Origin: Channallabes apus
Lineage: Eukaryota; Chordata; Actinopteri; Siluriformes; Clariidae
Direction of reading: 5' to 3'
Length of the DNA stretch: 64,000 bases
NCBI GenBank assembly: GCA_030522415.1
Contig: CM060114.1
Span: 28,090,804-28,154,803 of the forward strand
The notes under the pieces are model-generated. The model saw only the letters and a list, made by a program, of their open reading frames with translations. It searched no databases and was not told the origin of the DNA. Below are positions 1-64,000 of this stretch, piece by piece. The position numbers were made by a program, and so were the translations under genes. Each line of letters opens with the position of its first letter. The first letter of the stretch is position 1.

Positions 1-1710
1 TTTATCTATTCCCATGCAGATCACGGCATATCCTTAGACTACTACTCAATAGGGGTGCAACGATTAATCAACCGTATTGGCTACAATTGGTAATCAAATT
101 CGTCGACAACATATTTAACCATGGATTTGTTGATGACGTCATCGCGCATGATTCTCGCGCGAACTGGGAACGCTCCGACGTGTAGGCGTCAGGAGTGAAG
201 TGAGTAATAGCGCCATCGCAAACACCTTCACGAGCTGTTTGAATTAGCACCATGGATCTGTGAACAATCCTAAACTCGGGTTACTGTCTGTGTATGTTGG
301 CATACATCCCTACAGTATGTGGGTTTCTTCTCGGTTCTCGGGAGTATAGTGCACCCTATCTGGAAAAAGATTCCCAAATCACGCCCAGGGTTCCCTGGAT
401 AGCCACAGGATGAAACTGGAAATGAACGCCGGAACCGCTTGCAGTCTGCCTGTTTCTCAACCACTGGTGTTTTCAGTTCATGCACTGAAACCGTACCCTA
501 ATGATTTGTATTTGTCAAAGTCAATAGCTGGTACGAGCACACACATTTGTGTCACAGAAGTGAGTGAAGCCATGTACGAAATGCAGAACGGAAATGGAGT
601 AAAGTGCAGAGAGAGCTTTTGGGTTAGTGCAAGCCAGACATTAGCCAGGTATTCGGTCGTGGTCCGGGAATCAGCTCTCTTGCCAAGTCTGTGTAGACCT
701 CTGACGGAGAACTCGGTTAATGCAGGATGACTCCAACTGTTCGTCCTGCGTGCCAGCCCTAGATGAGCACTCGGCTATTTACACTTGGTGAGATCACCTT
801 CCAGCAATTGTAGCTTGGACTTGGCTCTAACGAAAGTCTTGGAGTTGTCTCCTTCTGGTCTGGTCTGGCTACGGGTGCTAAATCCAAGTGGAGTCATCAA
901 CAGGATTTACAATATAGACACTGAAATTGAGTTTTGAGGAAAATTCTTTGGTATCTATCCTCTTGCCGTCTTAACTTTGGGAAATTTTTTAAGCAGCGTA
1001 TGCTTACATGCCTAATCTGTATTCAAGCTAGATTAATGATATAAATAATTTTTATGCAACCATAGGTGTACCTTATATCGCTTACTCAAAGTGTGCCGCT
1101 ATTTGTACAGGACACGGATTAAAGCCTGTATTGATTAGTCAGTTCATAATGATATTTGATGATTGTTCCACATAAAAACCTCCATCTTTGATATAAACCT
1201 TTTATAAATTCTGCAGTGTTGCAGCGTACGCTTCAAATAAATGTGTACTATCCTGTCTCTGGGTAATGCACCTGCAGTGGCTGAGTCTGAGCCAATCCAT
1301 CTATCCGTGCCTCTTACTCAGCATGTTAATGCCCTTTCTCTGCACTCACTACTGCTACTGTAGAGCAGACGCAGCTGCCAAGTAATCCTGTATAAAGCCT
1401 GGTTATCTTTAACTCGGGATCCAGTGCTGTTTGGTGGCTGACGGTTGGTATAATAACCCCTTTCACAACTGGCGGCACGCGAGACTGAGATTCTCCTTCT
1501 TCGTTCTCGTTCCTAATTGTTGGTATCGCTTTGGCATCTCGTACTGTGCTTTAGGAGTGCTCATTGTAGCTGTCAGCCATGCTTTTGTGCCTCAGAACCA
1601 GGCTCATTTTTCTACAGCCCGAGTGGATGCGAAGATAAGAATGAAAATGCTGGAGTGATATGCTTTGAAATTTTTAAGTATATGTTAGAGACGGGAGGAA
1701 ATTGATTCAG
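1..1710. other. Upstream region without a recognisable gene
   Basis: No exon or known gene is supported here. Bases from about 53 resemble the terminus of a hAT-type element (GGGGTGCAACGATTAATC), but no partner end was found. The short open frames have no recognisable domain. TAC(A/T)GTA heptamers occur at 311 and 1356. Confidence 0.5.
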
Positions 1711-2430
1711 TTACGTACAGTGTAATGTTCATGTATCACCACACTTCCTCCAAAATTGCCTTTTTCAAATAAATTTTAAATCCACTATCATCCGGAGATC
1801 ACGAGTTCGATTCCCGGGTGATGCTGTAACCTCTCACAGCCGGAGGTCTAGAGAGAGCTGATTGGCCGAGCTCTTTCAGAGGGGAGGGATGAGAGGTACT
1901 TAGTGCTCACACATTAATCACGGCTCTACAGCCAATCAGGGGAGTCTGTGAGCTCACGCAAGCGGAAGGAGCGGATAGCGCTGTCCTCCGAGTGTGTTAC
2001 GCCGCCCCCAACGGTGCGCGAGAGAGCAGTCCGAAAAGATGCGGTCGGCTGGCGTCACGTGGTTCGGAGGAAACACGTGATAGTCTTTGGCCCCCCCGAC
2101 TGAGTGGTAGGAGTAGCCTTAATGTGGGAGCCCCCTAGTGACGGGGAGGAATTGGACACGGCTAAATTAGGGAGAAAATCTGGGAAATAAAAAATATAAT
2201 AATAATTTATATATGGTGGCAATATATTGCAGTTTCTCTATAATCCTATAGGTGGTGCACTTTAAATTATTTACACAGCACAGCATTCTGTGTGGTAGGA
2301 GTGAAATATGTGCTAAGTTTATTTAGAATTAAAAAATAGAATCATGATACTTATCGGATCGCAATGCAAATTAAATCGTTACCAAGGTACCGTGATATCA
2401 TATCGACTGATCCCTAGTAATTCCAATGCC
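1711..2430. repeat. Dispersed repeat, split by a SINE
   Basis: The segment before about 1790 and the segment after about 2205 match, in the same order, the two halves of a repeat at 11274-11600. Shared landmarks are a TTCATGT..CACCA..CTTC block on the left, and on the right a block around CTCTATAATCCT and an AATCATGATAC stretch. A SINE sits between the halves. The ATCGCAATGC..CGTGATATCATATCG wording near 2360-2405 is typical of fish hAT-like elements, which is an inference. Confidence 0.5.
1790..2205 (+). repeat. tRNA-derived SINE with long conserved body
   Basis: A B-box-like stretch (GAGTTCGATTCCCGGG, near 1804) is followed by a GC-rich, CpG-containing body of about 350 bases and an A-rich 3' end near 2190. 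This is the structure of a tRNA-derived SINE with a defective A-box side. It interrupts the dispersed repeat around it, so it is younger than that repeat. Confidence 0.65.
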
Positions 2431-2449
2431 TATACGAATTTCTGGCGCT

Positions 2450-2615
2450 GGAGGCTCAGTGTATTAAGGCTCTGAGTTACTGATTGGAAGGTCGGTGGTT
2501 CGAGCATCAACTGTGCACTGTTGGACCCGTATTTAAGGCCCTTAACTCTGTCTGCTCCAGCGGTGCTGTATAATGTCTGAACCCAGGGTACTAGCAAAGC
2601 AGGGATATGCAAAGA
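2450..2615 (+). repeat. tRNA-derived SINE fragment
   Basis: It has an A-box-like GGAGGCTCAGTG, a B-box-like GGTCGGTGGTTCGAGC and a pyrimidine-rich body with TAAGGCCCTTAAC. Related wording recurs at 6008-6150 and near 12680-12790. It is not a functional tRNA: the arms do not pair as a cloverleaf. Confidence 0.55.
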
Positions 2616-3014
2616 ATAAATACTGGTTCAAGACAGTAGGTTCATTCATGTTCCGATATATTTGCCAGTTGCAAAGCTTGCACCTTAACATTTTTTTTTA
2701 AGTTAAAGAATGGTTTCACTGCTCAGTTTGTCAGCTATGTTACTAACAGAACTTTGTCCCACGACTCAAAGATGTCATTTTATTCTGTGGCATACCTTTT
2801 GATCACAGTCGTGCTTGCGCTTCCCCCCCACTCCCCACTTTGCAGGATAAGTGTCCCAAAGAGCACTGGATATCTTCTTTTTATTTACAACAATTGGTTG
2901 CCTGAAGTAGAGAGTGAATGAATGAATGAATGATATTTTTGAAGAACATGTTTAAAATAAGAATATATATTTATCATCACCAGACATGGAATGTACAGTA
3001 AATTATAGAATAAG

Positions 3015-3165
3015 TAGAAATATAGCTGATGGGTTTCTCGCCTGGCATGCGGAAGGCCAGGGTTCAATTCTCAGCCAATACCCAAACCAGCACCAAGATG
3101 AAGTGTCGGTCCCAAGCCCAGATCAAATGGGAGGGTCTCGTTAGGAAGGGCATCTGGCATAAAAC
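3015..3165 (+). repeat. tRNA-Gly-like SINE, left part (split by a hAT element)
   Basis: The head resembles tRNA-Gly (TTCTCGCCTGGCATGCGGAAGG, with B box GGTTCAATTCTCAGCC near 3060). The body continues to CATAAAAC at 3158-3165 and resumes after the hAT element at 4006 with CTCGATATGAGCAGCCG and a CAA-rich tail to about 4045. Two further copies of the family lie at 5168-5290 and, inverted, at 6268-6405. Confidence 0.7.
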
Positions 3166-3997: not shown

Positions 3998-4045
3998 CAT
4001 AAAACCTCGATATGAGCAGCCGAAAGAGCAACAACAACAACATAC

Positions 4046-5167: not shown

Positions 5168-5290
5168 GACATCGGTGGCTCAATGGTAGCTTTCTTGCCT
5201 GCCATGCGGAAGGCACGGGGTTCAATTCCCAGCCAGTGCCCAAACCTCAGTCACTGGATCCAGTGCCCGTCCCTGAAAGACCAACAATTA
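5168..5290 (+). repeat. tRNA-Gly-like SINE
   Basis: This is the best preserved of the three tRNA-Gly-like heads: A box GGTGGCTCAATGGTAGC (5174-5190), anticodon-region TTGCCTGCCATGCGG, and B box GGTTCAATTCCCAGCC (5219-5234). The body is short. It serves as an intact comparison copy for the footprint in the inverted copy at 6380. Confidence 0.7.
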
Positions 5291-5329
5291 GTAATAGGAA
5301 GTTTGAATCATTTTAGTGACTCGGTTGTT

Positions 5330-6267: not shown

Positions 6268-6405
6268 CAACCCTCCCATTTTATCTGGTCTTGGGACTGG
6301 CACTGCGTCCAGTGGCTGGGTGGGTTTGGGAACTGGCGGGGAATCGAACCCGGGCCTTCTGCATGGCAGGTGAAACACCTACAGTACCACTGAGCCACCA
6401 GTGCC
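6268..6405 (-). repeat. tRNA-Gly-like SINE, inverted, with a footprint in its A box
   Basis: Read on the - strand, the A box, anticodon region and B box follow the pattern at 5168-5290. The A-box region holds five extra bases at a TA (6380-6386 reads TACAGTA) that the other copies lack. Confidence 0.7.
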
Positions 6406-7461: not shown

Positions 7462-7672
7462 GGGGCGGCGCATTGGCAGATGGGTTAGCACTGTCGCCAT
7501 GCACTAATTGGCTAATTGGTGTTCCCAAAATTGCGTGTTGTGTGTGTGCCCTGCGTTGGATTGGCACCCCATCCAGGGTGTACCCCGCCTTGTGCCCTAA
7601 GTCTCCTGGAATAGGCTTCAAGCCCCCCTCGACCCTGTATACAGGATGAAGCAGTTTAGACGATGAGTGAGT
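7462..7672 (+). repeat. tRNA-derived SINE (GATTGGCACCC core family)
   Basis: A degenerate tRNA-like head (GGGGCGGCGCATTGGCAGAT, GGTTAGCACTGTCGCC) is joined to the core TGGATTGGCACCCCATCCAG, then TGCCCTAAGTCTCCTGGAATAGGCT and a GATGAGTGAGTGAG tail. This is the commonest SINE in the window. Other copies or parts are at 7866, 11100, 23990, 26290, 31880, 35285, 43660 and 45405. Confidence 0.7.
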
Positions 7673-7865: not shown

Positions 7866-8052
7866 TAGGCTAACTGGCGTTTCCAAATGTGTGAATGAGT
7901 GTGGAACTGTGTGTATGTACAGTATGTATGTGTATCCCTGTGATGGATTGGCACCTCATTCCAGGGTGTATCTCACCTCGTGCCCTACTGTACGTCTTCT
8001 GGGATAGGCTCCAGGCCCCCCCATGATTCTGTATGCTAGATTAAGCGATGCA
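7866..8052 (+). repeat. SINE core-family copy with two footprints
   Basis: Its core matches the copy at 7462-7672. Two TAC(A/T)GTA heptamers interrupt it, at 7918-7924 inside a TATG run and at 7986-7992, where the sister copy reads CCCTAAG. Confidence 0.65.
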
Positions 8053-8237: not shown

Positions 8238-8276
8238 AATTAATGATCTAATTCCATTTCCTATTTATTTTTACAC

Positions 8277-12575: not shown

Positions 12576-13331
12576 TACACTGCCTGTCCATAAAAGTCAC
12601 TGTTTCAGAAAGGTCAAACTATTGGCCTGCATCTAGCGAGTAAATGAATAAGGAGATTTAAAAAATAGTTCATAGTAAGGCACTGGACCACGGTTCTAAA
12701 GGTCCCAGGTTCAAAACCCACATGAGCACCAATTTGTCCCATTTGGGCCCCGAGCAAGCCCCTTAACCCTCTTAACCCCTTAACTACAGTATTCAGTCGT
12801 ATAATGAGATGAAAATGTAAGTCACTCTAGATAATGGAGTTTGCCGAAAGCCATAATGTAAATGATGATTAGAACTAAAAATCACCTGTAATTGAGGATA
12901 ATCCTTCTGTTTGCTATAAATATTGAAGCTATGGAAAAGGGTCATGTGGTCTGTGGAGCCCAGATTGACCCTATTCTCCAGAGTGATGTGTGTTAGAGTA
13001 AGAAGGGAAGCACATGAAGCGATGCGCCCATCATGCATAGTGTCCACTGTACAAGCCTCTCGAGATAGTGTTATGATGTGTTACTTCAGTTGGTCAGGTT
13101 CAGACGTTATATGTACATTATTATGTACTGAATGACCAGGTTATCACATCTGTGGAGTTTTTCTTCTCTGATGGCACGGGGTATATTCCAGGGCTCAGAG
13201 TGTGAGAGTTGTTCTGGGAGCATGAGGAATCATTTTCACGCTTGAACTGGACCCCACATTGGGTACCAAAATCAAAGCAAAATTGGTCAAATGAAATCGT
13301 AGTGTGTGCCTATTATTTTGGCCAGGCCTGT
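12576..13331 (+). mobile_element. Tc1-like transposon relic with SINE insertion
   Basis: The left end ACACTGCCTGTCCATAAAAG pairs with the right end TTTTGGCCAGGCCTGTA near 13318-13333. Codons near 12923-13135 give a recognisable transposase block (VRVRREAHEAM, a degraded GCFSW region). The part near 12680-12790 looks like a SINE insertion. Frames are broken and most of the transposase is lost. Confidence 0.65.
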
Positions 13332-15025: not shown

Positions 15026-15160
15026 TACAGTGGTGTGAAAAACTATTTGCCCCCTTCCTGATTTCTTATTCTTTTGCATGTTTGTCACACTTAAATGTTT
15101 CTGCTCATTAAAAACCGTTAACTATTAGTCAAGGAAAACATAATTGAACACAAAATGCAG

Positions 15161-18100
15161 TTTTTAAATTCAATTCAATTCAATTCAGTTTTATTTGTAT
15201 AGCGCTTTTAACAATTGACATTGTCTCAAAACAGCTTTACACAATCAAAAGAATTATTTAAGTTTGTATGGAATGTGAATGTGTATGAATCAAAAATGTT
15301 CAGATAGTCCCTGGTGAGCAAGCCCGAGGGCGACAGTGGCAAGGAAAAACTCCCTGAGATGGTAATAGGAAGAAACCTTGAGAGGAACCAGACTCAACAG
15401 GGAACCCATCCTCATCTGGGTGAAACAGATAGCAGGAAATGATCTGCATTTATACAGTGTTAAGTGTTAGGTTCAGCTATAATAGTTGATGTTAATTGAT
15501 GTTAAAATGGAGTCCAGGAGTTATTGGAGACTCAGATAGACTTGTAGAAAGTTCCAGTCCTGAACTACCGAATTGTCAAGTCCTCAGAGAAACAGCTGCT
15601 AACACCAGTCGAGGCCAGAACCATCTTCTAAGTAGATAGAATCATCCCCAGACACCAGACGCATCCCAAAGAGACACACGGGGCATCCATGCGACGAGAC
15701 CTCCAACCAGAAACGGGGCACCAGGATGGGTCAGACAGGTCCGGAGGGCAGAGGGAGTCTGGATCACTGGCAGCTCAGGAATGACATGTGTAGCTCGACA
15801 GAGAGAGAGAGAGAAAGAGTGAAAGGGGGAGACAGGGGGGAGAGAGGAAAGAGAAAGAGGGGGAGAAAGAGAAGAAGAGGAGAGATTGCAATTAGGTATG
15901 GTCACAGTCACAATGTATAATGTGAATGTATATTTACTGTAGAGTGCAAGCAGGGACTCCGGCAGGACTAACTATGACAGCATAACTAAAAGGGAGAGCC
16001 AGAAGGAAACACAAACATGAGGGCTCCCTGAGATGTAAAGCAAACAATCACCTCACCGTCAACAAACCTGAGTGATCAAATGAGACTGAGGAAGACAGCA
16101 TCTAAACATACCAGTTCACCATAATACTCTACGTCCATGAGTCCCCCAGATCTGCTCCTTTACCTTATGGCAAATCTATTTATAAAAATGCTTGGCTAAA
16201 TAAATAGGTTTTGAGCCTAGACTTAAACACTGAGACTGTGTCTGAGTCCCGAACACTATTTGGAAGACTATTCCATAATTTTGAGCCTTTGTAAGAAAAA
16301 GCTCTGCCCCCAGCTGTAGTTTTCATAATACGCGGTACTGATAAGCAGCCTGCATCCTTTGACCGAAGTAGGCGTGGCGGATCGTAAGACACTAGCAGTT
16401 CGCTCAGATACTGCGGCGCGAGACCATTTAATGCTTTACAGTATATGTCAAGAGTAGTATTTAAAAATCAATGCGAAATTTCACAGGGAGCCAATGTAGT
16501 GAAGATAGGATAGGGGTGATGTGCTCATATCTTCTGGTTCTAGTGAGGACTCTCGCTGCTGCATTTTGGACTAGTTGAAGCTTGTTTATGCACCTAACAG
16601 AACAACCAGACAGTAAGGCATTACAATAGTCCAACCTAGAAGTGATAAAAGCATGACCTAGTTTTTCTGCATCGTTTAGCGACAATATATTTCTTATCTT
16701 GGCAATATTTCTGAGGTGAAAGAATGCTATCCTGGTGATATTATCTACATGAGCTTCAAATGAAAGGCTGGAATCTATAATCACGCCGAGGTCTTTTACT
16801 GTTGCACTTGATGGAACAGAAAGGCCATCTAAAGTTACGGTGTGATCTAAGATTTTACTTCTAGCTGTATGCGGTCCTATGACTAGAACTTCTGTCTTAT
16901 CTGGATTAAGCAGAAGGAAGTTAATTAGCATCCAATTTCTTATGTCCTGCACACATTGCTCAACTTTAGTAAGCTGGTTTTTCTCATCAGGTTTTGTTGA
17001 GACGTACAGTATAGCTGTGTGTCGTCAGCATAACAATGAAAACTAATACCATGCTTACGGATTATGTTGCCCAGAGGAAGCATGTAAAGGGAGAAAAGCA
17101 GTGGGCCTAAAACTGAACCCTGCAGAACGCCAAACTCCACTAGAGAACATGCAGAATAATCACCATTTAAGTCTACATACTGATAACGATCGGTCAAATA
17201 GGATCTGAGCCAGGAGAGGGCTGTACCCTTAATTCCTACTACATTTTCTAATCTGTGAAGAAGAATAGCATGATCAATGGTGTCAAAAGCTGCACTGAGG
17301 TCGAGTAATACAAGCATAGTTACCCTGATCAGAGGCCAACAGGAGGTCATTTACTACTTTAATGAGTGCTGTTTCTGTGCTGTGATGAGGCCTAAATCCT
17401 GACTGATACAGTTCATGTATGCCATTTCTATGTAGATATGAGCATAGCTGCTCCGCTACTATCTTTTCTAGAATCTTAGGCATAAAGGGGAGGTTTGATA
17501 TTGGCCTGTGATTGGACAGCTGACAGGGGTCGAGGTTAGGTTTCTTAATTATTGGTTTGATAACTGCTAATTTAAAAGATTTTGGAACATAACCAATGCT
17601 GAGTGAGAAATTAATTATTCTCAACAGCGGTTGTGTTATTACTGGTACTATCTGTTTAAGAAAATGTGTCGGTATAGGATCTAATATACAGGTTGATGAA
17701 TTTGCAGAAGAGATGAGTGAAATTAATTCATTCTCTTCAAGGGGAGTAAAGTATTCTAGGTTTGAATCTGACATGGCTAGGTTAACATCTGTATCAATTA
17801 CATTGTTCGGTTTTAAAGCCTCAATTTTATGCCTGATATTTACAATTTTATTATTAAAAAAGTTCATGAAGTTCTCACTATTGCATGATGTTGTTGTGGA
17901 GATATCTGTAGTGGTCTTATTTCTGGTTAATTTGGCTACGGTATTAAATAAAAATCTAGGATTATTTTTATTTTCTTCTATAAGAGTGGAGAGATACGTT
18001 GATCTAGCTACACTAAGAGCTTTACTATAGTTCAGGATGCTCTCTTTCCATGCTATTTGAAATACTAACAATTTAGTTTGACGCCATTTACGCTCTAATT

Positions 18101-18301
18101 TCCGAGCAGTCTGTTTTAAAGTGCGTGTGTGATCGTTATACCAGGGAGCGAGTTTCTTATCTCTAATAATTTTTCTTTTAGCTGGAGCTACATTATCTAA
18201 GGTACAACGAAATGTCGACTCTAAATATTCAGTCGCTTGATCGAGTTCTGTGGGGTCAGACGGTGACCTAATCGAAGTTGGTAAATGAAGGTTTACGTTA
18301 T
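15161..18301 (-). mobile_element. L2-like LINE, 5'-truncated, reverse transcriptase frames broken
   Basis: Read on the - strand, this is the reverse transcriptase half of an L2/CR1-type LINE. It has the [20 protein letters not shown] region (about 17560-17490), [14 protein letters not shown] (17310-17270), [19 protein letters not shown] and the catalytic YADD box (about 17025). A C-terminal SKLWNSLPNSVRDSD block follows near 16250. The endonuclease half is missing. The reading frame breaks near 17320 and again at 17005-17011, where a TACAGTA footprint coincides with the shift. The 3' end has the TATAGCGCTTTTAACAATTG block and a (TGAAT)n tail (15161-15187). Clade by recall of fish L2 sequences. 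Confidence 0.85.
15798..15887. repeat. GA-rich low-complexity tract
   Basis: A purine-rich GAGAGAAAGGGG-type tract in the 3' part of the L2 copy. The shorter L2 copy at 47516-48049 ends before this point. Confidence 0.8.
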
Positions 18302-18631
18302 TAAGGGAGAAAAAAAACTCCAAATCTACATGGCCCTGTGTGAAAAAGTGATTGCCCCCCTTGTTAAAAAATAACTTAACTGTGGTTTATCACATCTGAG
18401 TTCAATTTCTGTAGTCACCTCCAGGCCTGATTACTGCCACACCTGTTTCAATCAAGAAATCACTTAAATAGGAGCTACCTGACACAGAGAAGTAGACCAA
18501 AAGCACCTCAAAAGCTAGACATCATGCCAAGATCCAAAGAAATTCAGGAACAAATGAGAACAAAAGTAATTGAGATCTATCAGTCTGGTAAAGGTTATAA
18601 AGCCATTTCTAAAGCTTTGGGACTCCAGTGA

Positions 18632-19753
<1,122 letters not shown>

Positions 19754-20622
19754 TAGATGGAACCATGAATTCTACTGTCTACCAAAAAATGCTGAAGGAG
19801 AATGTCCGGCCATCTGTTCGTCAACTCAAGCTGAAGCGATCTTAAGTGCTGCAGCAGGACAATGACCCAAAACACACCAGCAAATCCACCTCTGAATGGC
19901 TGAAGAAAAACAAAATGAAGACTTTGGAGTGGCCTAGTCAAAGTCCTGACCTGAATCCTATTGAGATGTTGTGGCATGACCTTAAAAAGGCGGTTCATGC
20001 TAGAAAACCCTCAAATAAAGCTGAATTACAACAATTCTGCAAAGATGAGTGGGCCAAAATTCCTCCAGAGCGCTGTAAAAGACTCATTGCAAGTTATCGC
20101 AAACACTTGATTGCAGTTATTGCTGCTAAGGGTGGCCCAACCAGTTATTAGGTTCAGGGGGCAATTACTTTTTCACACAGGGCCATGTAGGTTTGGATTT
20201 TTTTTCTCCCTAAATAATAAAACCCCTCATTTAAAAACTGCATTTTGTGTTTACTTGTATTATCTTTGACTAATAGTTAAATGTGTTTGATGATCAGAAA
20301 CATTTTGTGTGACAAACGTGCAAAAGAATAAGAAATCAGGAGGGGGGCAAATAGTTTTTCACACCACTGTACATAAATAAAGTACTTTCTTGTAAACAGA
20401 GCTAATCTCGAAACTTTATGATATCCACCTCAAAGACTGTCTCTGTATGCTGTAGCATTACCTACACCATAGGTACTCAAATATAAATTTGAAAGGTCCA
20501 CTTACCAAATTTCTATTCAGTCCGAGGTCCGGAAAAATTACAGTCCAATTTCAAATAGAGAACTACAAAAAAAGTCAATACCCAAAAATGACTTGGTAGT
20601 CCTTTTAGTGTGAAAGGTGACA

Positions 20623-28074: not shown

Positions 28075-28275
28075 ATAAATTGAAGTCAGCTGACGACAAA
28101 TCAGTGGAGTTTTTCCCTCCCTGATGGAACAGGTACTGTATATATTACTCAAATTTTGGTGGAGTGTTTCTGGGAATATGAGGAATCCGTTTCACACAAG
28201 AACTCCACACCACACTGTGTGCTGTAATTAGAGCTAAATGTGATTCAATGAAATCTTATATTGTGCTAAACAGAG
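28075..28275 (+). mobile_element. Tc1-like relic, C-terminal part
   Basis: Matches 13145-13331 in order: GTGGAGTTTTT, TTCTGGGA.TATGAGGAATC, CACCACACTGTG. Both are the 3' part of one Tc1 family. This copy has a footprint at 28134-28140 that the other lacks. Confidence 0.55.
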
Positions 28276-37040: not shown

Positions 37041-37206
37041 GTAGTACTGACTTTAAAGCTCATTAGAGTTATACAAACTCTCCCTTTGTTTATACAGTAT
37101 GTACTGTATTCATGTGTACACTGTATTTGAACATGTTGTGATAAATTACTGTACAGTACTGTATAAAGAAATGAGGAATGAATCACGTATTTGATAAAGC
37201 ACCGTT

Positions 37207-39049: not shown

Positions 39050-39184
39050 GTAAGAACTCGGTTTGAGCCATGCCAGCATCCGGAGGTTCGTTCAATTAGC
39101 TGTTGTCCTCACGCTATGGAGCAGCCATTACGGCATCAAGATGCAATTTGTTTTTTGGAGTTTAACTCATATTTGTTCAACCTA

Positions 39185-39486
39185 CAGTGCCTTGCAAAAG
39201 TATTCATACCGCTTGAACTTTTCCATATTTTGACAAGTTAGAACCACAAACGTGTGAATGTATTTTATTGGGATTTCATGTGATAGACCAACACAATGTG
39301 GCACGTAATTGCGAAGTGGAAGCAAAAATATAAAAATATATTTTGTTACAAATAAAAAACTAAAAAGTGTGACGTGCTTTATCTTGGTCTATCACATAAA
39401 ATCCCCATAAAATACATTTGTTTGTGGTTGTAACATGATAAAATGTGGAAAAGTTCAATGAGTATGAATACTTTTGCAAGGCACTG
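39185..39486. mobile_element. Foldback Tc1-type MITE
   Basis: Begins CAGTGCCTTGCAAAAGTATT after TA and ends AATACTTTTGCAAGGCACTG before TA. The two halves are inverted over more than 100 bases (for example TGTGATAGACCAA against TTGGTCTATCACA), so nearly the whole 302-bp element folds into a hairpin. No coding sequence. Its CAGT terminus is the kind that would leave TACAGTA or TACTGTA on excision. Confidence 0.9.
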
Positions 39487-40244
39487 TAATAACCCAATCT
39501 GGTGCATATTATGAAGGGCCAGTAGTCTTTCACTGCATGTTCTACACATACTGTACCATGCCTGATTGCTCATCTTTTTGGCAGATATATTTATAATGAG
39601 TGGTGAGATAGAAAATGCCAAATGATAAGTATTTACAGTAAATGACTGCATCAGATCAAAGTGGCATTTTAATTAAAACTTATATTATAATATCTTAAAA
39701 GATCAGTCTTTTTAAATCAGCATGTAAATGTGAATTTACTGACAGTAACATTACATTAACTGACACCCCTTGGAAGCCCTGTCCCTCATATATGATATAT
39801 AATATATAATATCACATTGATTCAACGTCCTTGATCTTTCTTACAGTAAATTGTGAATGGTTTGTGTTTATTAATGAGTAAACTCTATCAATATGCTATT
39901 AACATCAGTTTTCCAAAAAAAAAAGAAAGTATGGCTTATGGAGAAATCATTTGTTTTATCATATGTCATGATTCATCTTTCTGGCAGATGCTGTGACCAT
40001 AGTCACTAAAAGCAGAACAACATTCTCTGATACACAAAGGAAGTGTTACTGTAGGTAGTAAAATAATAGAGATTTTACATGCATAAATCACAGTGTCAGG
40101 AACCAGAGATGGATGCAGCTGCAGGAAGTGCTTTTATTAAATAGACGATAGACATACTGATTTATATGTGAGACAGTGGCAAAGTCCAAAACTGGCAAAA
40201 GGTCAAAGCTGTTCTGTTTTACTGCAGTGAAATGTTTTTAACTT
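39487..40244. other. syn3 intron 3 stretch, nothing recognised
   Basis: AT-rich intron. Heptamers occur at 39549, 39634 and 40047. Confidence 0.4.
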
Positions 40245-41135
40245 AGCTTTAGCAATAAGCTAACTAGCTGACAATAGCGAGTAGCTTTAGCAATAAGCTA
40301 ACCAGCTGACAATAGCAAGTAGCTTTAGCAGCAAGATCACCAGCAGACAATAGCGAGTAGCTTTAGCAATAAGCTAACCAGCTGACAATAGCGAGTAGCT
40401 TTAGCAGCAATCTAATCAGCAGACAATAGCGAGTAGCTTTAGCAATAAGCTAACCAGCAGACAATAGTGAGTAGCTTTAGCAGCAAGATCACCAGCAGAC
40501 AATAGCGAGTAGCTTTAGCAATAAGCTAACCAGCTGACAATAGCGAGTAGCTTTAGCAGCAATCTAATCAGCAGACAATAGCGAGTAGCTTTAGCAATAA
40601 GCTAACCAGCTGACAATAGCGAGTAGCTTTAGCAGCAAGCTAACGAGCAGATAATAGCAAGTACTTTAATCAGCAAGCTAACCAGCATATAATAGCAAGT
40701 ACTTTTAGCAGCAAGCTAACCAGCAGACATTTAGCAACAAGTTATCCAGGAGACAACAAAGAGTAAATTTAGCAGCAAGCTAACCAGCAAACAATTGCAA
40801 GTAGCTTTAGCAACAAGCTAATCAACCAACCAGCAGACAAAAGCAAGTACTTTTAGCAGAAAGCTAACCAGCAGACAATAGCGAGTAGCTTTAGCAGCAA
40901 CCTAACCAGAAGACAATAGCAAGTAATTTTAACAGCAAGCTAACCAGCAAGCAATCTATTCAGCGGACAATAGCAAGTAGTTTTAGCACCAGCTAACCAG
41001 CGGGCAATAGCGAGTAGCTTTAGCAACAAGCTAACCAACAGACAATAGCGAGTAGCTTTATCAGCAAGCTAACCAGCGGACAATAGCAAGTAGCTTTAGC
41101 ACCAGTTAACCAGCGGGCAATAGCGAGTAGTGTTA
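40245..41135. repeat. 38-bp satellite array with higher-order structure
   Basis: About 23 tandem units of 38 bp with consensus start AGCTTTAGCA, a variable middle, and end GACAATAGCGAGT. The first ten units are regular: unit types differ in the middle (AATAAGCTAACC, GCAAGATCACC, GCAATCTAATC) and run A, A, B, A, C, A, B, A, C, A. This gives a four-unit, 152-bp higher-order repeat. Units after about 40625 are more diverged, with small deletions. No coding frame. Confidence 0.93.
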
Positions 41136-51350: not shown

Positions 51351-51945
51351 GTAAGTGACTCTTCATCAAATAGTACAATGCACAATTCACTGTATCAACG
51401 AGCTGAAAAAGCAGATATTTAAAAAAATTATATTTACATAGACCCCAAAATTCTAATAATAATGAGAAAAATAATCGCTGAATTGGCATAAAAATGTCTC
51501 ATGTGAATACCTAAGTCGCATAAGTCTGATCTGATCTGCATGATCTGTTCCACAAGTAAATATTAGCCATGTAAACACGTGATCTGTTTCTCTCTTCTTG
51601 GAATGAATATATTCTTTCTGCACGTTTCTCCTACATGAGTACTGTATATCTAACCAATCATACAGTAGATGAGAATCGATTCTTGTAACTAATCATCATG
51701 TGGGGTTTATCAGAAAAAAATGGTAAGCCTATTCACAGAGTTGGAAAGCAAAACAACTTCTACCTCCTCTTCTTATCTTATTTTCCAGCAGTGGGAAAAC
51801 GTTATATTCTGATTAAATGCTTTGTCCTTGTAAACACACTTCTTATCAAATCACAGCATCCATGTGAAATCGTTCCATGTGAGTTGGAATCCCTGTTCAG
51901 TTGGATCAAAGTAATATTGTTCATGTAAATCCACCTACCGATATA
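51351..51945. other. 5' part of syn3 intron 4
   Basis: No repeat family recognised. Heptamers occur at 51640 and 51661. Confidence 0.45.
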
Positions 51946-53145
51946 CAGTGTTGTGAAAAACTATTTGCCCCAGTTCTCTCACTTAAATGATTCAGGTCAC
52001 CAACTAATTTTAATATTACACAAAGATAACCAGAGTAAATACAAAATGCAGGTTTTAAATGATTATTCTATTTATAAAGGGAAAAAAGCTGTCCAAACCT
52101 GCCTGGCCCTGTGTGAAAAAGTAATTGCTGCTAAACCTAATCACTGGTTGTGCCACCCTTGGCGACAACAACTGCAATCAAGCATTTACGATAACTGGCA
52201 GTGAGTCTTTCACATCGCTGTGGAGGAATTTTGGCCCGCTCTTCTATGCGGAATTGTTTTAATTCAGCCACGCTGAAGGGTTTTCGAGCGTGAACGACCT
52301 GTTTTTGTTTTGTTTTTTGTTTTGTTCTTTCGAGCCATTCAGACGTGGACTTGCTCGCTCATTTTAGATAATTGTCCTACTGCTTAACCAAAGTGCGCTT
52401 GAGCTTGAAGTGATAAACTGATGGCCGGACATGATCCTTCAGGATTTTCTGGTCGAGCGCAGACTTCATGGTTCCATCAGTTATAGCAAGGAGTCCAGGT
52501 TCTGAAGCTGTAAACCCCCAGACCATCACACTACCACCACGTTTACTATTGGTACGATGTTCTTTTTATGAAAAGCTGTGATAGGTTTACTCCAGATCTA
52601 ACAGGACGCACCCCAACTTTTGTCACATCAGTCCACAGAGTATTTACCCAAAAGTCTTGGTGATAATGAAGATATTTTTTAGCAAATGTGAGACGAGGCT
52701 TTGTGTTCTTTTTGGTCAGCAGTGGCTTTCTCCTTGGGACTCTATCATGGATGCCATTTTTGCCCCAGTCTCTTTCTTATGGTTGAATCAAGAGCACTTA
52801 TCATAACTGAGACCTTACTTACCATAAGTGAGGTCTGCAGTACTTTAGATGTTTTTCTGGGTTCTTTTATGAGCTCCTGGATGAGTTGTCATTGTGCTAT
52901 GGGGTCATTTTGGTAGACCGACCATTCCTGGGAAGGTTCACCATTGTTCCAAGTATTCTCCATTTGTGGTTCGCTGTAGTCCTAAAGCCTTATAAATGGC
53001 TTTGTAACCCTTTTCAGACTAATGCATGCCAATTACTTTGTTTCTCATTACTTTTTCACATAGCAGGTTTAGGCAGCTTTTTTCCCTTAATAAATGAAAT
53101 CATCATTCAAAAACTGCAGTTTTAAAATTTACTCTGGGTAAACAG
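51946..53145 (-). mobile_element. Tc1-like relic, inverted
   Basis: The left terminus CAGTGTTGTGAAAAACTATT and the inner motif CTGTGTGAAAAAGTAATTGC (about 52110) match the IR/DR motifs of the Tc1 at 15028-20369. On the - strand, transposase remains run from the C-terminus (near 52130-52290) to the middle (near 52440-52600, with GGTAGTGTGATGGTCTGGGG) and further 5' parts near 52640-52900. Frames are broken and the N-terminal half is scrambled. Confidence 0.75.
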
Positions 53146-53689: not shown

Positions 53690-56633
53690 ATGCAATTTTT
53701 ATTAAATCTTTATTATAAAAATATAAAAAGAGAAATTAAAAATCATAACATTTTCTGTAAGCTTCTACAAGAAAGACATTTCCCCTTACAAATCAGTGTA
53801 CACACAAACACATATGCAAACACACACACTGGAACACACACACTGTACATTTAAAAAAAAAAAAAAAAATCTATTAATTAAATTCAAGACATGATTGACT
53901 GCAAGGTGTGTAAAAAGACGGTATTTTACACGAGCGTAAAGTGGGGGAGACTAAGACGCCTCAGGCTTTTTTCAACACGGTTAATATTTGGAATAAACAC
54001 GGTGGATTTTATCTCATAAGCCTGTCTGCGAACAATACAAGGAGTTAAAAATAATCTTGAAAAACATTTATCTGTTTCGGTTTGCTTGAGGATAGAGGTT
54101 ATAATTCTGTACTGTACATTTCATGTGAACTTATCTACCAAAGAGATCTTAGTCTCATACAGAGGAATGAACTGAAGATACTGTCGAGAGTGAATACTAT
54201 AAAATGGAGAAAAAAACAAAAGCTTAACAACACAAATCAGATTTTTTTCAAATAGATCAATATCTTTACAGAAATATTGAATCCATAATTAATACCAAAA
54301 TTAAAACCTCTGTTTGTGTGCTGTATGTTAGTACCAGCCAGCTCATTCTCCAGGACAGAAGTACCATCACAAGTAACACTATTAATAACATCACCATCAT
54401 TGTACTGTTGTACATATAGGACTTTTTTCTTTTCTTTTTTTTTGTCTTTAGTCTTTTTTAAAACTAACTCCTGGCGCAGGCTTGACTTTTGGTTCTGGGA
54501 TGTCCACTGGATTTTGTAGCCTTTTCTTGTCGCACACTATGGGGTAAGTTTCTCAGTCCAGATTACGTTCGGTCATGAATACAAATCAGCGCAGGCAGAG
54601 AGCTGAATTTGTGTGGACCATTCTGTGTAGATAACATTAAACTGAAACGCTAATGGTTGGAAATATACTCCCTGTATAGTGAGCGTATTTTGTCCAAATA
54701 CCTGCCTATATACTACACGTGTTACTGGAGAATTCCAGTAGGGGGCACACCGGATAGTTCAATAAGATACAGTAGGTATCTGATTAAACACTCGAGTAGG
54801 GTTAGGGTTTTGACATGCATATTTAATCCCTGTGCATTCGGGATAAAAATCAGCACGGATCGCCTGATACGATATTATCACGATACCTCGGTGCAGATAC
54901 GATTTGTATTGCGTTTCTGTAATTATCACGATTTTATAAATATCTTAATTCAACGTTAGATTTTGGTACAATTTTAAACAACTTTCGAAAATAATTTGCC
55001 TGTATGACACATGATGCTGTCCATGTGTGAATAGTTTAGAGAACACCCCCTGTAGGATTTTAGAGGAACTGCAAAGTTTTGCTACCTTAAATGCAAAAAT
55101 ATTTAAATTTCAATATTAAAAATAGATTTTGAATTTAGTCTGACGATAAATGAATCGCCACATTAAAGAACTGCGATATGTAACTGAAACGATTTCCCCC
55201 CCATTTTCTACTTGGCACTTTGCTCTGTGCTACTGTTTTAATGAATATTCCATCTAGCCGGGATGTTGTGTTAATTTCTGAGGAAGTGCACACACGATTG
55301 CAGGATGCGCGAGGCAGTCGTCATGTGCATACGTACGCGTAGTTGAAAGCAAGTACATTTCCACCCTAACTTGTTAAATGTAACATGGATTTAATTCAAC
55401 ATTCACAATCAACAACAACAGAGGTTTTAGTCAGGTCATCATTTCTTAGCTTATACCATGAAGAGCGAGTAACAAATAAAAAAATAACTAAAAGCTCTGT
55501 TCAAGAAAAACAAAACAACTGTTCCCCACAAAAGTGTTCTATGCGCTTTCTTTCTTTTTTTTTTTCTTGTTGATTTGAAAAAATATACATTATTACTCTG
55601 TTATTAATTATGACTATTCGAACGAACGGGAAAAAAATACTTTGAATGCAGAAGATTATATTAGGAGAGTTGTACAACTACAGCATGAAGCAGGAGGCAG
55701 GCAAAAAGGACCACTTACAGTATAAATAAGATATTATACAGCATACATGGTGGATCTATACAGTTATTCATATTCGTTCTAAATAATAAAAAAAAATAAC
55801 ACTTCTGAATGAGGACCGGTATTGCTTTTATAAATTATTGGATCAGAATCATGTATTGAACAGTAAGCATGATATACTGTACAGTATTATCATGTAGGTG
55901 TACGGTCTCTACACCCGCTGTGTTAAGTGATGCTGTGTTTGTCACCCAACCCTTTTCACAGTAACACTTATTGCTTTAGATCGGCGTGAAGGAAGTGTCC
56001 AAATGTTTCGATCGATTATACAAAGGCAGCAGCTAAGAAAGCGCGTTAAGTGCACTCTCGAAGGAAACTAAAGGGGGGAGGCAAGAAATACTCAAGGAAT
56101 TAAATCACAATTAATTGAACTGTTTTAATCTGAATATTGAAAGTGTCATGGTCTAGGAAGGCAATATGGAGTTATACATACCTGTAGCAATGAATACAAA
56201 GAGTCCATCATCATGCCAGTACACAAATACATACTGATATGATTTATAGGACATTTCTCTCTGTCAGACTTTTGGCTGTAATTATGTCCCAAATTGTAAT
56301 GACTATTAGGATTGTTTTTACCCTGATTTATTTCTTGTCTCTTCCCCCTTTGACGCGTCCTTTGAGATCTTTAACTGCTCGGTGTGCGTCTCCGTGGACG
56401 ACTGGGCCACAGCGTCAAATATGCAACTAGTATGAATTCAAACACAGGTACGGTTCACCTCTAAAGTGCTACCACAGGCAATGAAATTGTCATTCAGCAC
56501 GATCTGAATTATTTCCGTATCCCTGGAAACAAGGAAGGAAAACATTTTTTGGGGGACAAAAAAAAAAAACAACAATGATTGCTTTGATGGTTATTGGGGG
56601 GAGAAAAAGGATTTTTTTTAAAAAAACAGTATT
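53690..56633 (-). other. timp3: Possible timp3 3' UTR
   Basis: Mammalian TIMP3 has a very long 3' UTR. On the - strand, the strongest candidate ends are the AATAAA signals at 53709-53714 and 53698-53703, which would give a UTR of about 2.9 kb ending about 230 bp from syn3 exon 5. A repeat copy at about 54800-55260 lies inside, and other AATAAA words occur nearer the stop, so the true UTR may be shorter. Transcript data would decide. Heptamers occur at 54110, 54768, 55716, 55875 and 55880. Confidence 0.35.
54800..55260 (-). repeat. Dispersed hAT-like repeat, third copy
   Basis: Contains GATACGATATTATCACGATA wording and, inverted, the block GTAGGATTTTAGAGGAACTG that corresponds to CAGTTCCTCTATGATCCTGC in the copy at 11274-11600. 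The ends are not defined. Confidence 0.4.
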
Positions 56634-57902: not shown

Positions 57903-59036
57903 CTAGGATGGAGAAAGAAATTCGAACGATTATTATATGACATTTCGTGCATTCTTTCACTGTGTTATTTGCTTAGTTCAGATCCATGGCGCAGTAATGT
58001 TGCACTGAGTGAACTGCCTTCCTCTGCAGTATTTCATGATTCTCGAAAGGTCCTTTAACAGTTATTTTTAGCTTTGCGCTGTTTGTGGCTTATCGCCTAT
58101 GACAGGATCCCGAACTCTGCAACAGGTGCAGTGACCGAGCTCTGCAGCACGGCAGCGGACTAAAACCGTGACCGCGCACCCGTCCCCTCGAGGTAGCTTA
58201 TCCTTACAGCCAGATTATTTTAGACGCAGGTCTGGAACGAGATCTTATCTCGAGTGGAGCGTGCAGCGACAAAGCTCGTCATGTGGAAAGCACATGATCG
58301 GAGGAACACGTTCATGCTGGCTGAGTTAAAAAAGCACATAAACAGAACTCACAACAAACTCCTGGGAAACTCCGACTCGGTTATGGATGTAAACAACATA
58401 AATGGTGGTGGTGTTGTTGTTGTGTGTGTAAAAGGGAGCTAGAGAGAGGTGAACTGTGTATCTGTACGTGATGGGTGTGTGATTCTTTCCAGCCAATCAG
58501 CAACAATGAAAACCTTATGTGTTTAGCTTTTCCTTATGCAAGACGTTCTCGTGTGCCTCGCCACCGAATGTACATTGGATGAAATTCCGCCGGTGTTTGT
58601 TTTCTGCAAGCGAAGCGTGGCTTGTTTGCGAAGCTTGAAAAAGATGCGGTCATGCTCTGCTTATAACGTTAAAATAAGTCCAATCTGCCCCTCCTGTCAA
58701 CTTCCTGCCAATTGTTAAATGCGTGCGGAGAACTTTTTTACTCTTTTTTTTTTTTTTTTTTTTTTTATTCCAGTGAAATGGCAAACCGTTCTCTTCTCTG
58801 GGGAACGTCAAGGGAGGGAAATTTCGCCTTGCGGTCATGTGTGTAATAGAGGACTTTTGTTGTGTGTCGTTGGTTTAGAGGGATGGTGCTTTAAAGGCAA
58901 ACAAAAGGCTGCCATGAGTAACCTGTTTTGCATATACACTTGAGCATGCAAAAAACAACGAATCACAGATGGAACGCTCTGCTTTACATGCGTCAAAGGT
59001 TTAACGGTTCTACAGTACAGTATGTCTGAAACTTAC
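57903..59036. other. timp3: timp3 intron 3
   Basis: An 1134-bp intron (donor GTAAGT at 59036). A poly(T) run lies at 58745-58766. The part 58080-58330 is comparatively GC-rich and repeat-free. Two overlapping heptamers lie at 59011-59022, only about 15 bases inside the donor of exon 3. Confidence 0.8.
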
Positions 59037-59716: not shown

Positions 59717-59732
59717 TGTGTATTTGTGTGTG

Positions 59733-59791
<59 letters not shown>
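59717..59791. repeat. (TG)n(TA)n microsatellite
   Basis: A TG run (with one TT variant) passes into about 18 TA units within timp3 intron 2. Confidence 0.9.
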
Positions 59792-59795
<4 letters not shown>

Positions 59796-60510
59796 TTTTT
59801 TAATGTAAAGAAACTTTTTTTTTCTTCAGTGATTTTAGACAATTGAACAAAAGCGTGTTCTCTTTTTGTTTGAATTTTTAAAAAAAATCTGCATTTGCAG
59901 TAACGGCGTCATTTCATCCATGTTAAGGCTAATTACAAACATGTTAATACTGTACAATCACAGCCTTAAGAAATTATTCCTCTTTATAAGGAACGTACTC
60001 AAGTTTCAGTATTTAGTTACTGGTCAGTGATTTTTAGTTAGCGCTTGTTAGCAAGAGCGCAGTAGCTAGCACAGATGTTAATCTGAAACTTTATAGGTAA
60101 ACTTATTGAGAAGTATTACACCGATACAAATTCTGTAACACCACTTGAAACATGTAAAAATCCTTGGAAACAAAGACAAAAAGACGAGAAACTAATCTTT
60201 AAACCTGATGTGAAACAGCTAACTCGCTATTTAGCTAATTTAGCGATCTAATGCTGAGGTATTTACTCAGCAGCTAGCTAAAGTTAAAAGAAAATGAACA
60301 CTAATGTTAATAAATGTTATAGGTAGTAATTGTTGCATTTTCTAGGTTCCTACAATGTATATTAATTAAAAAATATATAAAAATCGATGGTTGATAAGTG
60401 TGGCTGAATAAACATACACATCACCACAGAGAAGTTTGAGCCTGACTGTGTGAACATGGGGTTATTTGTAAGTTTACCATTACATTACCTCAGCAATATA
60501 ACCGCTGTAT

Positions 60511-61015
60511 ACAGTACTTCGCTAAAGTCTTACACACATGCAAAGAAATACATAAAGAAAAACATTTCAACCCAAAAGTAACTTCTGTAAAGCGCACTAA
60601 ATAATAACAACGTAAGCACTTGACCATACTGGGTGTGACAACCCATTGCTTAAAAATAAATACTAGCATCACAGACAGATTCATGCAGTTTTCTAAGTAA
60701 ATAAGATGGTAGGTTTTAATGAGCCACATATGAGAATATGCCACAGTTCTTCTAGTAACTTTGTCACACTTGCTTCTTTTTATTTTTAAGCAAAAGCCTT
60801 CATTATGTGGCCTCCCCCCCCCCATCCATCTTAAAACCGGTCTGTTATGCAATATGTTGCTTTCTTTACAGGCAGGCACATTTATTCCCTGTAACTTTAT
60901 TTGGTTGTTTGTTTTGAAATTAGGTCCAGAAATGTAAAATCCTCAATAATGCAGACGTGATAAACAAAAGTTCTACTGAAAATAGGGTGCCTAAGACGTT
61001 TATTGCACAATACTT
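60511..61015. mobile_element. Tc1-type MITE in timp3 intron 2
   Basis: The left end (CAGTACTTCGCTAAAGTCTT) and right end (GTGCCTAAGACGTTTATTGC followed by ACAATACTTTA) form an imperfect inverted repeat. The body shares blocks with 46331-46855. The family end CAGTACTGTGCAAAAGTCTT is intact in the copy at 63043. Confidence 0.6.
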
Positions 61016-61079
61016 TATATAGTATACTGTACTACTTTCACTACAGATACTCAACTACCAATGTGTTTAATAAACTTGC

Positions 61080-61162
61080 CTTCATCTGCTTGACTGTGTA
61101 GCGCATGGTGCCAAATGGGCCATCTTTCAGCAACTTCTTCCCCACCACTTTGGCTCGGATCA
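61080..61162 (-). CDS. timp3: TIMP3, coding exon 2 (with GC splice donor)
   Basis: An 83-bp exon starting in phase 1 (acceptor TTTTGCAG|TG). It encodes the rest of a split valine, then [20 protein letters not shown] and YTVKQMK. This is the first part of the inhibitory domain after the Cys-rich N-terminus. The donor is AAG|GCAAGT, a GC donor with otherwise perfect consensus. Using the nearby GT would add four bases and break the frame, so the GC site is required by the KQMK-MYKGF junction. Exons 2 to 5 give 170 whole residues, which with about 17 from exon 1 makes the usual 188-residue mature TIMP3. Exon 1 was not found up to 64000; TIMP3 intron 1 is very long in mammals. Confidence 0.94.
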
Positions 61163-63040
61163 CTGCAAAACAGAATGGTATAAGCACATGTCCTGGTTAT
61201 TCTCCTGCACATGTCCTGAGTCACAAACACAGAAAGCAGCAGCTATTCATCACCGAACATCAGTTTAAAGGTCCTGTATGTTATTGTTTCTGTAACGAGT
61301 TAGCACAGGTCTCAGAGCGCCCAAAACACATGTGTTTGTTAAGATGCCAGGTACGATACTCTCAAATAATGCTTTTTTTTAAACTACAGTACCTTGTTTC
61401 ACTTGTCAGATGAATAAGCTGTTAGTGAAGAGCTGCAGAGCTGAGCAAAAAGTAGGAGGAGGGGTTCCCTCTTATGAGGTCATATTGGGGAGAAATCTAA
61501 TTGGCTTGTTTAATCTCTGACCAATACAAAAAAAATGGAAAAAGACATTATTGTTCACCAGTTATTGTATTCTAAAATAACTGGTGAATTTTGCATCATA
61601 CAGTAGGTGTCCTTTAAGGTCTACTTATTCTCTTCCAACTTCCATAGCTTCATGAAAGACAAACACTTAGTAGTCATGACATGAGCCCACATATGTCTTT
61701 GCTCATTCAGCATTCAGTATGTAATTTTTTTTTAATATAACCCTAAATGTTCTCTATGGGACACCGTACAGGTGTGAAGGCAAATTTTTAAATGCACAGG
61801 TCAAATTGTACTTAAAGCCTTACATGACAAAATAATGACCTCCACCAGAGTTATATTGGGAAATATTGAAATAACTGTACTAATGGGTTGATGATAAGAG
61901 TGCTGTATGAGATTAATGATTAATAGATCTTGTGCACCATGCATAAAGCAAACATCTACCAGTGCATTGTGTTTCATAAGGTATTATACGGATAATACTG
62001 TACGTCTTAAGTGATGTACACTCCAGGTAAACGATGCATATGGGACATATCGAGTAGGTGTCTCTCTCAGACAGAACTGCCTCCTTAGAGAGCTAAGAAT
62101 GAGGGCATGTCAATGCTCCGCCATCTTCCTCCTTAATCCTGGCCCGTGTGAAAGGATTAAACAATCCGGTCTAGCCCTCTCAACAGCCTCAAATCTTTAC
62201 AGTGATCTGTTTTTTTTTATATCTTTTTTTTTGGTCTATGGTCCCATATAAACAACAGGGAAATAAGGAGCATAGACAAAACATCTGGCTCGGTTTACGT
62301 CTCTCCTGACACCGTCCGTACAGGAGGCGGCTAACGAGATGGCTCATTTGCGGCAATGAATAGGCTTTTCCTTTAGAGTCTAAATCTGTTTGTCTCGGAG
62401 GACTGTCGGCTCTTAGACACCAGGCAGTGTGTGAAGTTCACCTGCTCCTCTCAACCAGACAGGGAGGAAGAGAGGAGGGAGGAGGTGACAGAGAAAGCTT
62501 GCAGAGACGGGGATGTTTGTTATCTTTACTTCCCCGTAGGAATTTCCTTCCCACATTTCCTTCAGGCTCGCATTCCACAGGCTAATCCAAAAAAAGAAAG
62601 CCGTCTGACTCCTCCTGCTCAGCAGGGACAGAAGGTTCGAGCATCTTCTCCGGCATCACTGCCTCGATAACCTCATCAAAACCAGTTAAAGCCGAATCAT
62701 TGGCAGCGCTGATACTGGTTTGGCCTTCTATTGGCTTATAAAAGTATGGAGATATTTTATCGGACATGCAACAACATTTTAAATCTTATCACAACTTTCT
62801 AATTTACATTTTGCACCTGACAGCCTTCAAGTGATCTCTGTTCATTTGCAAAAATAATGGTTCCTGAGATTTGTAATGGTTTTATTGTATTGTCCTTTAA
62901 CAAAAACAAAACAAAGACTGTTTAGAAGGCCATGTGTGTAAAACAGCAGACGTCCTCATTAGATAAGAGACACCTCATGTCTCAAGATTTTTTTTCCAAC
63001 CTATATACAGTACTGAACAATATGTATGCAAACACACTAA
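61163..63040. other. timp3: Part of timp3 intron 1
   Basis: No exon found; in particular nothing matches the Cys-X-Cys N-terminus of mature TIMP3. Bases 62080-62420 and 62430-62700 are repeat-free, of balanced composition, and contain a CCATATAA serum-response-like word (62244-62251). They are candidates for regulatory sequence. Heptamers occur at 61385, 61599, 61996 and 63006. Confidence 0.5.
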
Positions 63041-63042
63041 TA

Positions 63043-63497
63043 CAGTACTGTGCAAAAGTCTTGAGCCACCCGTCAGATTAAATGATGTGGATTATATTAA
63101 AGGGAAAAAAACTGTTTTACTGCTACAATCTGCCAAGTGCCCAAAAATACAATTTTAAAATTGCTCATTTACGTAACAGCCTCAGCAGCAACCTCATTTC
63201 CCCTCTCGTCCACTCGGCATTCAGCATCACTACTATACTAATCAACTGTCATCACCTGCACCTGTTTTTTGCATCATGCATCTGCATCATGCTTTTTTAT
63301 GCTTGAATGATTCATAGGTCACTGCGCGGCTTAACAAACGAAAAACCTTCCTCTGAAACAGGGACTGGACTGGAAATGTGAGACTGGAGAACTGTTCCTC
63401 AAGAGTACATTAAAAAATACAAGACAGTCTGACTGTTTGGAAGCATAATTATGTGAAAAAAATTAAGCATGACTCAATCCTTTTTTGCACAGTACTG
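63043..63497. mobile_element. Tc1-type MITE with intact ends
   Basis: Begins CAGTACTGTGCAAAAGTCTT after TA (63041-63042) and ends TTTTTTGCACAGTACTG before TA (63498-63499). 455 bp, no transposase. Because the tip is the palindrome CAGTACTG, the heptamers at 63041 and 63493 are element termini, not footprints. Confidence 0.85.
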
Positions 63498-63499
63498 TA

Positions 63500-64000
63500 G
63501 TTAAAATACACATATATAAATACAGTATAGATTAGGTCTGTATATGCAGTTTTGCATGTACAAAGTGGCAACACATTCCATGTATCATTCAACAAATTCC
63601 TAATGTGGACTGTGAATAAGACATGGAGGACTGCTTACCCCCAGTTACAGCCTCGCTGTTAATCATTTACTTAAATGAAAAAGAATTTTAAAAGATCCAA
63701 AGAGGACATGGAGGCAAAATATGTAAATGTGCCACCTTTAACGTTTCAGGTTAAATGATGTACCTTTGACCTTTTCCCTTGTATTCCCAGAAGGCTGTGG
63801 GTTTCCTAACCTTTGAACATTCCACTCTTCACTTTGGCTTTGACCCAAACCTGCATGTTTGTCCTTGCCAGACACGCTCCGTATTTGGTACAGTCCGGTT
63901 TGAACCACATGACTGCACACAAAGCGCCTCTCTCCGGCACCTTGGCTGGGATCCTTAAACATGAATTAAATCTCAAAGTGTGGGGCAAAACACTAATCTG
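63500..64000. other. timp3 intron 1, right edge, with an unexplained segment
   Basis: Bases 63780-63965 are less AT-rich than their surroundings and open in more than one frame on the - strand, including a cysteine- and lysine-containing frame (LCAVMWFKPDCTKYGACLAR). I recognise no protein family and no convincing exon. A footprint heptamer lies at 63521. Confidence 0.3.

Follow-up and report, generated by a model that had tools for sequence, protein, structure and literature searches.

The heptamers TACAGTA and TACTGTA (together TACWGTA, where W is A or T) are about 10-fold more frequent than dinucleotide shuffling predicts in a 64,000-nucleotide stretch of the Channallabes apus genome (C11:28,090,804-28,154,803 of a 1.165-Gb assembly, called the window here), and most of them are very probably excision footprints of Tc1-type transposons with CAG at their tips. 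An earlier note on this DNA, made by eye, had put forward the same reading from about 86 heptamers and a roughly 8-fold excess. The exact count is 88 (48 TACAGTA and 40 TACTGTA), and 100 shuffles of the window gave a mean of 8.87 (standard deviation 2.66, maximum 17). The interpretation as Tc1 footprints is supported by sequence controls, by five-base gaps at TA between repeat copies and by the base preference at the former target sites. The further claim of one former insertion behind every remaining site holds for most sites but goes too far. Chance alone should account for about 9-10 of the 88 heptamers, and retrotransposons or tandem arrays have made further copies of some scars, so that a heptamer is not always one excision and the independent excisions are fewer than the heptamers.

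Abundance of TACWGTA in the window and the genome

Three of the window heptamers (60510, 63041 and 63493) are element ends, as had been claimed. The other 85, distributed over 1..64000 in 46 CAG and 39 CTG forms and taken without regard to strand, are the proposed footprints. When all 32 TA-NNN-TA classes of the window were compared with a first-order expectation, CAG/CTG stood far above the others with 88 occurrences against 9.0. The remaining 31 cores were at most 3.4-fold above expectation, the highest being TAA/TTA (38 against 11.2, 3.4-fold) and AAA/TTT reaching 43 against 18.6. An order-2 Markov model predicts 12.1 heptamers, and TACWGTA ranks first among the 7-mers of the window after simple repeats are set aside. 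The earlier note had proposed shuffled controls and the permuted word TAGACTA as a check, and the heptamer is far above both in the window, where TAGACTA occurs three times and TAGTCTA once. TACATA, which we take to be the worm-type scar, shows no excess in the window (44 against 46.7 expected), and TACAGCTGTA occurs 0 times there against 0.1 expected.

The whole 1.165-Gb genome contains 979,603 copies of TACWGTA, compared with a mononucleotide expectation of about 219,000 at 41% GC. Three palindromic controls of equal composition were counted. The reversed word ATGWCAT occurs 260,532 times, TAGWCTA 82,780 times and ATCWGAT 226,651 times, and TACWGTA is 3.8-, 11.8- and 4.3-fold higher, respectively. 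Genome-wide counts no higher than those of matched palindromes had been named in advance as a refuting outcome, and these numbers contradict it. The genomic excess amounts to about 0.72-0.90 million sites, element ends and copied scars included. Heptamer density is 0.84 per kb in the genome and 1.375 per kb in the window, which is about 1.6 times richer; a density above one per kb, as the note had given it for this stretch, is found in the window but not genome-wide. For the mouse genome the corresponding density is about 0.11 per kb. The cited passage on mouse speaks of "over 300,000" such sites (PMC4378557).

An independent sample was made by cutting one 10-kb stretch from each of contigs 1-20, always at the same coordinate (20 stretches, L005-L024, 200 kb). 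Without masking it contained 145 heptamers against 36 expected at order 1, and satellite words ranked above the heptamer, which came first only once tandem arrays were masked. The words at the top of the unmasked sample are of the ACACTAC type, possibly a satellite, and one stretch (L024) consists of 88 percent tandem repeat. Outside tandem arrays (180 kb), 138 heptamers were found against 30.3 expected at order 2. TACWGTA was then the most over-represented non-simple heptamer, with a z score of 19.6 and a runner-up at 9.9, and CAG/CTG was the top TA-NNN-TA class. Individual stretches had densities between 0.20 and 1.81 per kb, tandem DNA excluded.

Five-base differences and target-site preference

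The clearest scars are two TACAGTA heptamers on the forward strand, at 16437..16443 and 17005..17011, inside the same non-long-terminal-repeat (non-LTR) retrotransposon. For 17005 we scored the best 40 of 586 candidate genome copies, the query included. Their length difference from the query was 0 in 30 and exactly -5 in 9 (39 of 40); leaving out the query, 29 of 39 scored copies were of equal length and 9 were exactly five bases shorter, the latter at a listed identity of 96% with the gap counted. The best 40 of 149 candidates for 16437, again with the query included, gave differences of 0 in 15 and exactly -5 in 19 (34 of 40), so that 19 of the 39 other scored copies are shorter by exactly five bases. 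Letters were aligned for seven copies chosen by length, for a copy in L023 and for the window copy. They read ...GACGTATAGC... in one form and ...GACGTACAGTATAGC... in the other, and the rest is closely similar. The L023 copy lacks the heptamer and has an open frame of 1,022 codons across the site, while the window copy is split into two overlapping frames at the scar, which suggests that the site originally read plain TA. Base differences flanking the scar on both sides in 17005, L025-L031 and L023 form two combinations, each with and without the scar. This suggests either that the same TA was scarred twice or that sequence was exchanged between retrotransposon copies.

The comparison was extended to all repeat copies in 264 kb (window plus sample), with repeat copies standing in for orthologues. 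The input comprised 220 heptamers, 11 matches to a loose tip pattern having been dropped, and 1,277 control TANNNTA sites, each spliced to TA. A spanning repeat copy was available for 24 of the 220 heptamers; 15 fitted better in the empty form, five bases shorter, and 9 in the filled form. Among 221 control sites, 24 were empty, 190 filled and 7 undecided (heptamer versus control, p=5.7e-8). The best copy showed plain TA at 11 of the 15 empty-fitting sites. Within the window alone, heptamers were empty at 5 of 5 sites and controls at 6 of 36 (p=6e-4). A scan for insertions and deletions between repeat copies that was blind to the motif returned 12 five-base insertions, six of which were TA becoming TACWGTA. 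These alignments are best read as a net insertion of five bases at a former single TA. The alternative outcome foreseen in the note, heptamers aligning as ordinary substituted sequence, was not what the repeat copies gave, for they show five-base gaps at TA at most testable sites.

That related copies carry a plain TA had also been claimed, and this proved true of part of the sites. It is seen for 6380, 16437 and 17005, and for 7986 against one copy. The TACAGTA at 6380..6386 (+) lies in a dispersed repeat that resembles by eye a short interspersed element derived from transfer RNA, and the copy at 5174-5246 has TA. The TACTGTA at 7986..7992 (-), also in a dispersed repeat, has TA in the copy 7541-7652 and CA, AG or GA in the others, all of which fit the shorter form better. 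The claim failed at 15935, where all three copies seen carry the heptamer. As to other cores, TAGCCTA was the second most enriched TANNNTA class of the masked sample (27 against 9.2). Its excess is probably repeat-borne, because 18 of 19 TAGCCTA sites with decided repeat copies in window and sample match the filled form.

The bases around the heptamers carry a second signal. Once the five bases are taken out, the flanks of the remaining TA differ from those of ordinary TAs at positions 1-3 on either side and not at positions 4-6. Scored against the published ATATATAT model, 72 isolated window scars matched 2.53 of 6 positions and other TAs 1.98 (p=1.3e-5). The pattern AYR-TA-YRT, which was drawn from the window, gave p=4.5e-11 there and was reproduced in the independent sample (131 isolated sites, p=2e-10); it was absent at other TANNNTA sites. 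At the first flank position C is preferred alongside T. We judge AYR-TA-YRT to be the same preference as the ATATATAT of Tc1-like elements, and the flanks would thus reflect a palindromic AT target of the Tc1/Sleeping Beauty (SB) type extending three bases to each side. The target preference of the zebrafish element ZB is likewise given as ATATATAT and called very similar to those of SB and Bari in the cited passage (PMC7913693). Both middle-base forms are about equally frequent. The CAG:CTG ratio is 46:39 in the window (p=0.52) and, as a count only, 68:77 in the sample.

Mechanism and competing explanations

The steps that could produce such scars are modelled on SB. A CAG-tipped element would insert at TA and duplicate it. 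On excision the transposase would cut three bases inside each end, leaving a three-base tip overhang on each flank. The two overhangs could pair at C and G and would clash at the middle A:A, which end joining would resolve to A or T. The outcome would be TA-CAG-TA or TA-CTG-TA, a net insertion of five bases at the former TA, and the two forms should arise at about 1:1 because CAG/CAG overhangs would clash only at the middle A:A. SB transposase is described as nicking three bases inside the element to give 3-nucleotide 3' overhangs, and end joining after SB excision as leaving footprints identical to the overhangs (PMC7827188, in the passages cited). The typical SB footprint is given as TAC(A/T)GTA (PMC3432063, PMC4378557). 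The scars would be of germline origin, drift having fixed them while most insertions were lost.

Several results weigh against this reading or narrow it. At a loose threshold the window-only test gave 7 of 13 empty heptamers versus 18 of 52 controls (p=0.22), and its significance was lost. The heptamer is present in most copies at 9 of the 24 testable sites. The sites are not all independent, since four of these nine belong to one repeat (15935, L010, L020, L023), three of the 15 empty sites to a single tandem array in L015, and three of the six TA to TACWGTA insertions in the blind scan to that array. Among the empty sites, 7918 lies in a GT run, the alignment at 28134 has extra gaps, and TA is missing from the best copy at 7986, at 12785 and at two sites of L022. 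Insertion and deletion sizes have no peak at five bases (4-, 5- and 6-base events number 14, 12 and 10). In the window, flank positions 8 and 10 show weak deviations that the target model would not lead one to expect. Heptamers lie close together more often than random TAs would, with 13 pairs less than 15 bp apart where 4.3 are expected (counted over the window and the 18 sample stretches other than L015 and L024). Any count of footprints per element also shifts with the number of eroded elements that escaped notice.

The strongest competitor, though an improbable one, is that the heptamer belongs to one or more repeat families and is copied along with them, so that the excess counts repeats and not excisions. 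Such copying does occur. The heptamer at 15935 is inherited, with copies in L010, L020 and L023, three heptamers lie in the L015 array, and the 30 copies equal in length to the 17005 query include three that were read and carry the heptamer. As a general account it is opposed by the lack, by eye, of any common sequence in 35 bases of flank around the 88 window sites. Spanning copies were found for only the 24 of 220 heptamers in 264 kb mentioned above (genome-wide copies were sought at two sites only), and the excess survives outside tandem arrays. We see hardly any room for mutational or compositional bias that would raise TACWGTA without any insertion. ACTGTA and ACAGTA are also high, as they must be given the heptamer, and words one mismatch away number 262 in the window against 211 and 194 in simulations, 1.2- to 1.35-fold up. 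Decayed scars and Tc1 tips would produce a modest excess of this kind, while the order-2 model falls far short of the 88 observed, and across the genome the reversed and permuted words stay far below the heptamer. The neighbour words would put the mean decay at roughly 0.09-0.11 per site, a figure that we do not use as a date because Tc1 tips inflate some of them.

It is very unlikely that the heptamers are leftover tips such as CAGTACTG of decayed Tc1 elements. Three window heptamers are element ends and the 11 loose tip matches were dropped from the 264 kb, but the other flanks do not run on into tip sequence by eye, and one-sided tips would not yield five-base differences between closely similar copies. 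A selected motif has as little to recommend it. TACTGTA is a 7mer-A1 seed match for the microRNAs miR-101 and miR-144, and a microRNA or protein-binding site might be maintained by selection. Against this, neither orientation clearly predominates, the flanks carry the signature of transposon target sites, and retrotransposon copies with and without the heptamer coexist. The heptamers lie in introns and repeats. None was found in the nine synapsin and TIMP3 coding matches that our probes gave (some synapsin exons remained unmatched), which agrees with the earlier statement that no coding exon of these genes carries one. The balance of these results favours excision footprints of CAG-tipped elements for most TACWGTA sites.

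Resident elements, known systems and clustered heptamers

Elements that could have been the source are present in the genome, as judged from CAG tips, flanking TAs and Tc1 transposase remnants, and the three-base core of the scars corresponds to their terminal trinucleotide with TA on both sides. The CAG-ended elements that the earlier note had placed at 15028, 39185, 51946 and 63043 were found, at 15026, 39183, 51944 and 63041. The first, at 15026..20371 (5.3 kb), is a Tc1 element. It has CAG tips TACAGTGGTGTG... at 15026 and 20371 with TA flanks, terminal repeats alike at 24 of 25 compared bases, and a transposase remnant at 18632-19192 (PF01498). It is interrupted at about 15850-18386 by the non-LTR retrotransposon, whose frames are on the minus strand and which holds the heptamers at 15935, 16437 and 17005. 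A short non-autonomous Tc1-type element with CAG tips TACAGTGCCTTG... at both ends lies at 39183..39488. The decayed Tc1 copy TACAGTGTTGTG... at 51944..52970 (-) retains TA and a CAG tip at 51944-51948 and a transposase remnant at 52437-52968 (-). Both ends are present in the short element TACAGTACTGTGCAAAAG... at 63041..63499, with tips TACAGTACTGTG... at 63041 and 63499; the heptamers 63041 and 63493 are its ends and not scars. By eye, the Tc1-type element end at 60510..60540 (+) resembles this element, and heptamer 60510 is its end. Two Tc1 tip sequences searched in viral contigs gave 0 matches each. A 38-base tandem repeat array at 40130-41122, between two synapsin coding matches, is free of heptamers.

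The canonical SB footprint shares with the scars described here the heptamer in both forms, the TA target, the three-base core and a ATATATAT-like target. In the cited accounts it is reported from engineered transposition in cells and tumours, whereas the sites here are natural, inherited and number several hundred thousand or more in one genome. ZB and other fish Tc1 elements have the same target preference and leave footprints of 0-3 bp; those footprints were read from donor plasmids, according to the portion cited (PMC7913693), while our source element is only a CAG-tipped class. Past excisions were also read from genome sequence in a rice catalogue comparing O. sativa with O. glaberrima, where the cited part lists 94 putative excisions identified by orthology, 8 of them perfect and the rest with deletions or filler (PMC4423477). 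The scar studied here has a fixed form, can be counted from one genome alone and is far more numerous. The chemistry of the scar is already known; a genome-scale record of it was not met in the open-access literature, where no title or abstract among the papers that our searches listed reported genome-wide fossil footprints of this type (subscription journals and preprints were outside the scope).

Transposon histories are usually drawn from copies that stayed, filtered by selection and deletion. A near-neutral, fixed five-base scar would record jumps that left, and a genome could tally departures besides retained copies. We tentatively propose, with confidence a little short of even, that the scars form a near-neutral tally of germline excisions of Tc1 elements, about half a million of them or more, that they outnumber recognisable CAG-tipped elements by about 15:1 in the window, and that they become new TA targets, are spread by retrotransposons and create miR-101/144 seed matches on the transcribed strand. 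The 15:1 ratio sets about 76 excess heptamers against 5 elements and is an upper limit, since elements that have eroded escape the count. With equal retention of insertions and scars, the donor site would still hold a copy after only about 6 percent of jumps. Scars in 3' untranslated regions could create microRNA sites through the TACTGTA seed match. The scar is countable in one genome, datable by decay and checkable as a class of five-base insertions and deletions in populations. It would directly measure excisions per retained copy, germline target choice and the transposon-made share of small insertions and deletions.

Some heptamers share their TAs. Three in succession (CTG, CAG, CTG) were read at 37147..37163, a chain that we read as a footprint inside a footprint, and pairs with a common TA lie at 55875..55886 and 59011..59022 (+). 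TA-sharing pairs number 4 versus 1.5-1.8 simulated (P 0.05-0.13), which is not significant alone. Genome-wide, heptamer pairs with a 7-base spacer occur 3,554 times compared with about 820 if they were independent. The clustering could stem from hot targets, from new insertions into the TA of an existing scar or from local repeats. An experiment in bream tabulated new Tc1-type insertions, 13 of which are listed in the cited table (PMC4683633). By our own reading of that table, one of the 13 is at the TA of a TACAGTA, which shows only that a scar can be re-used.

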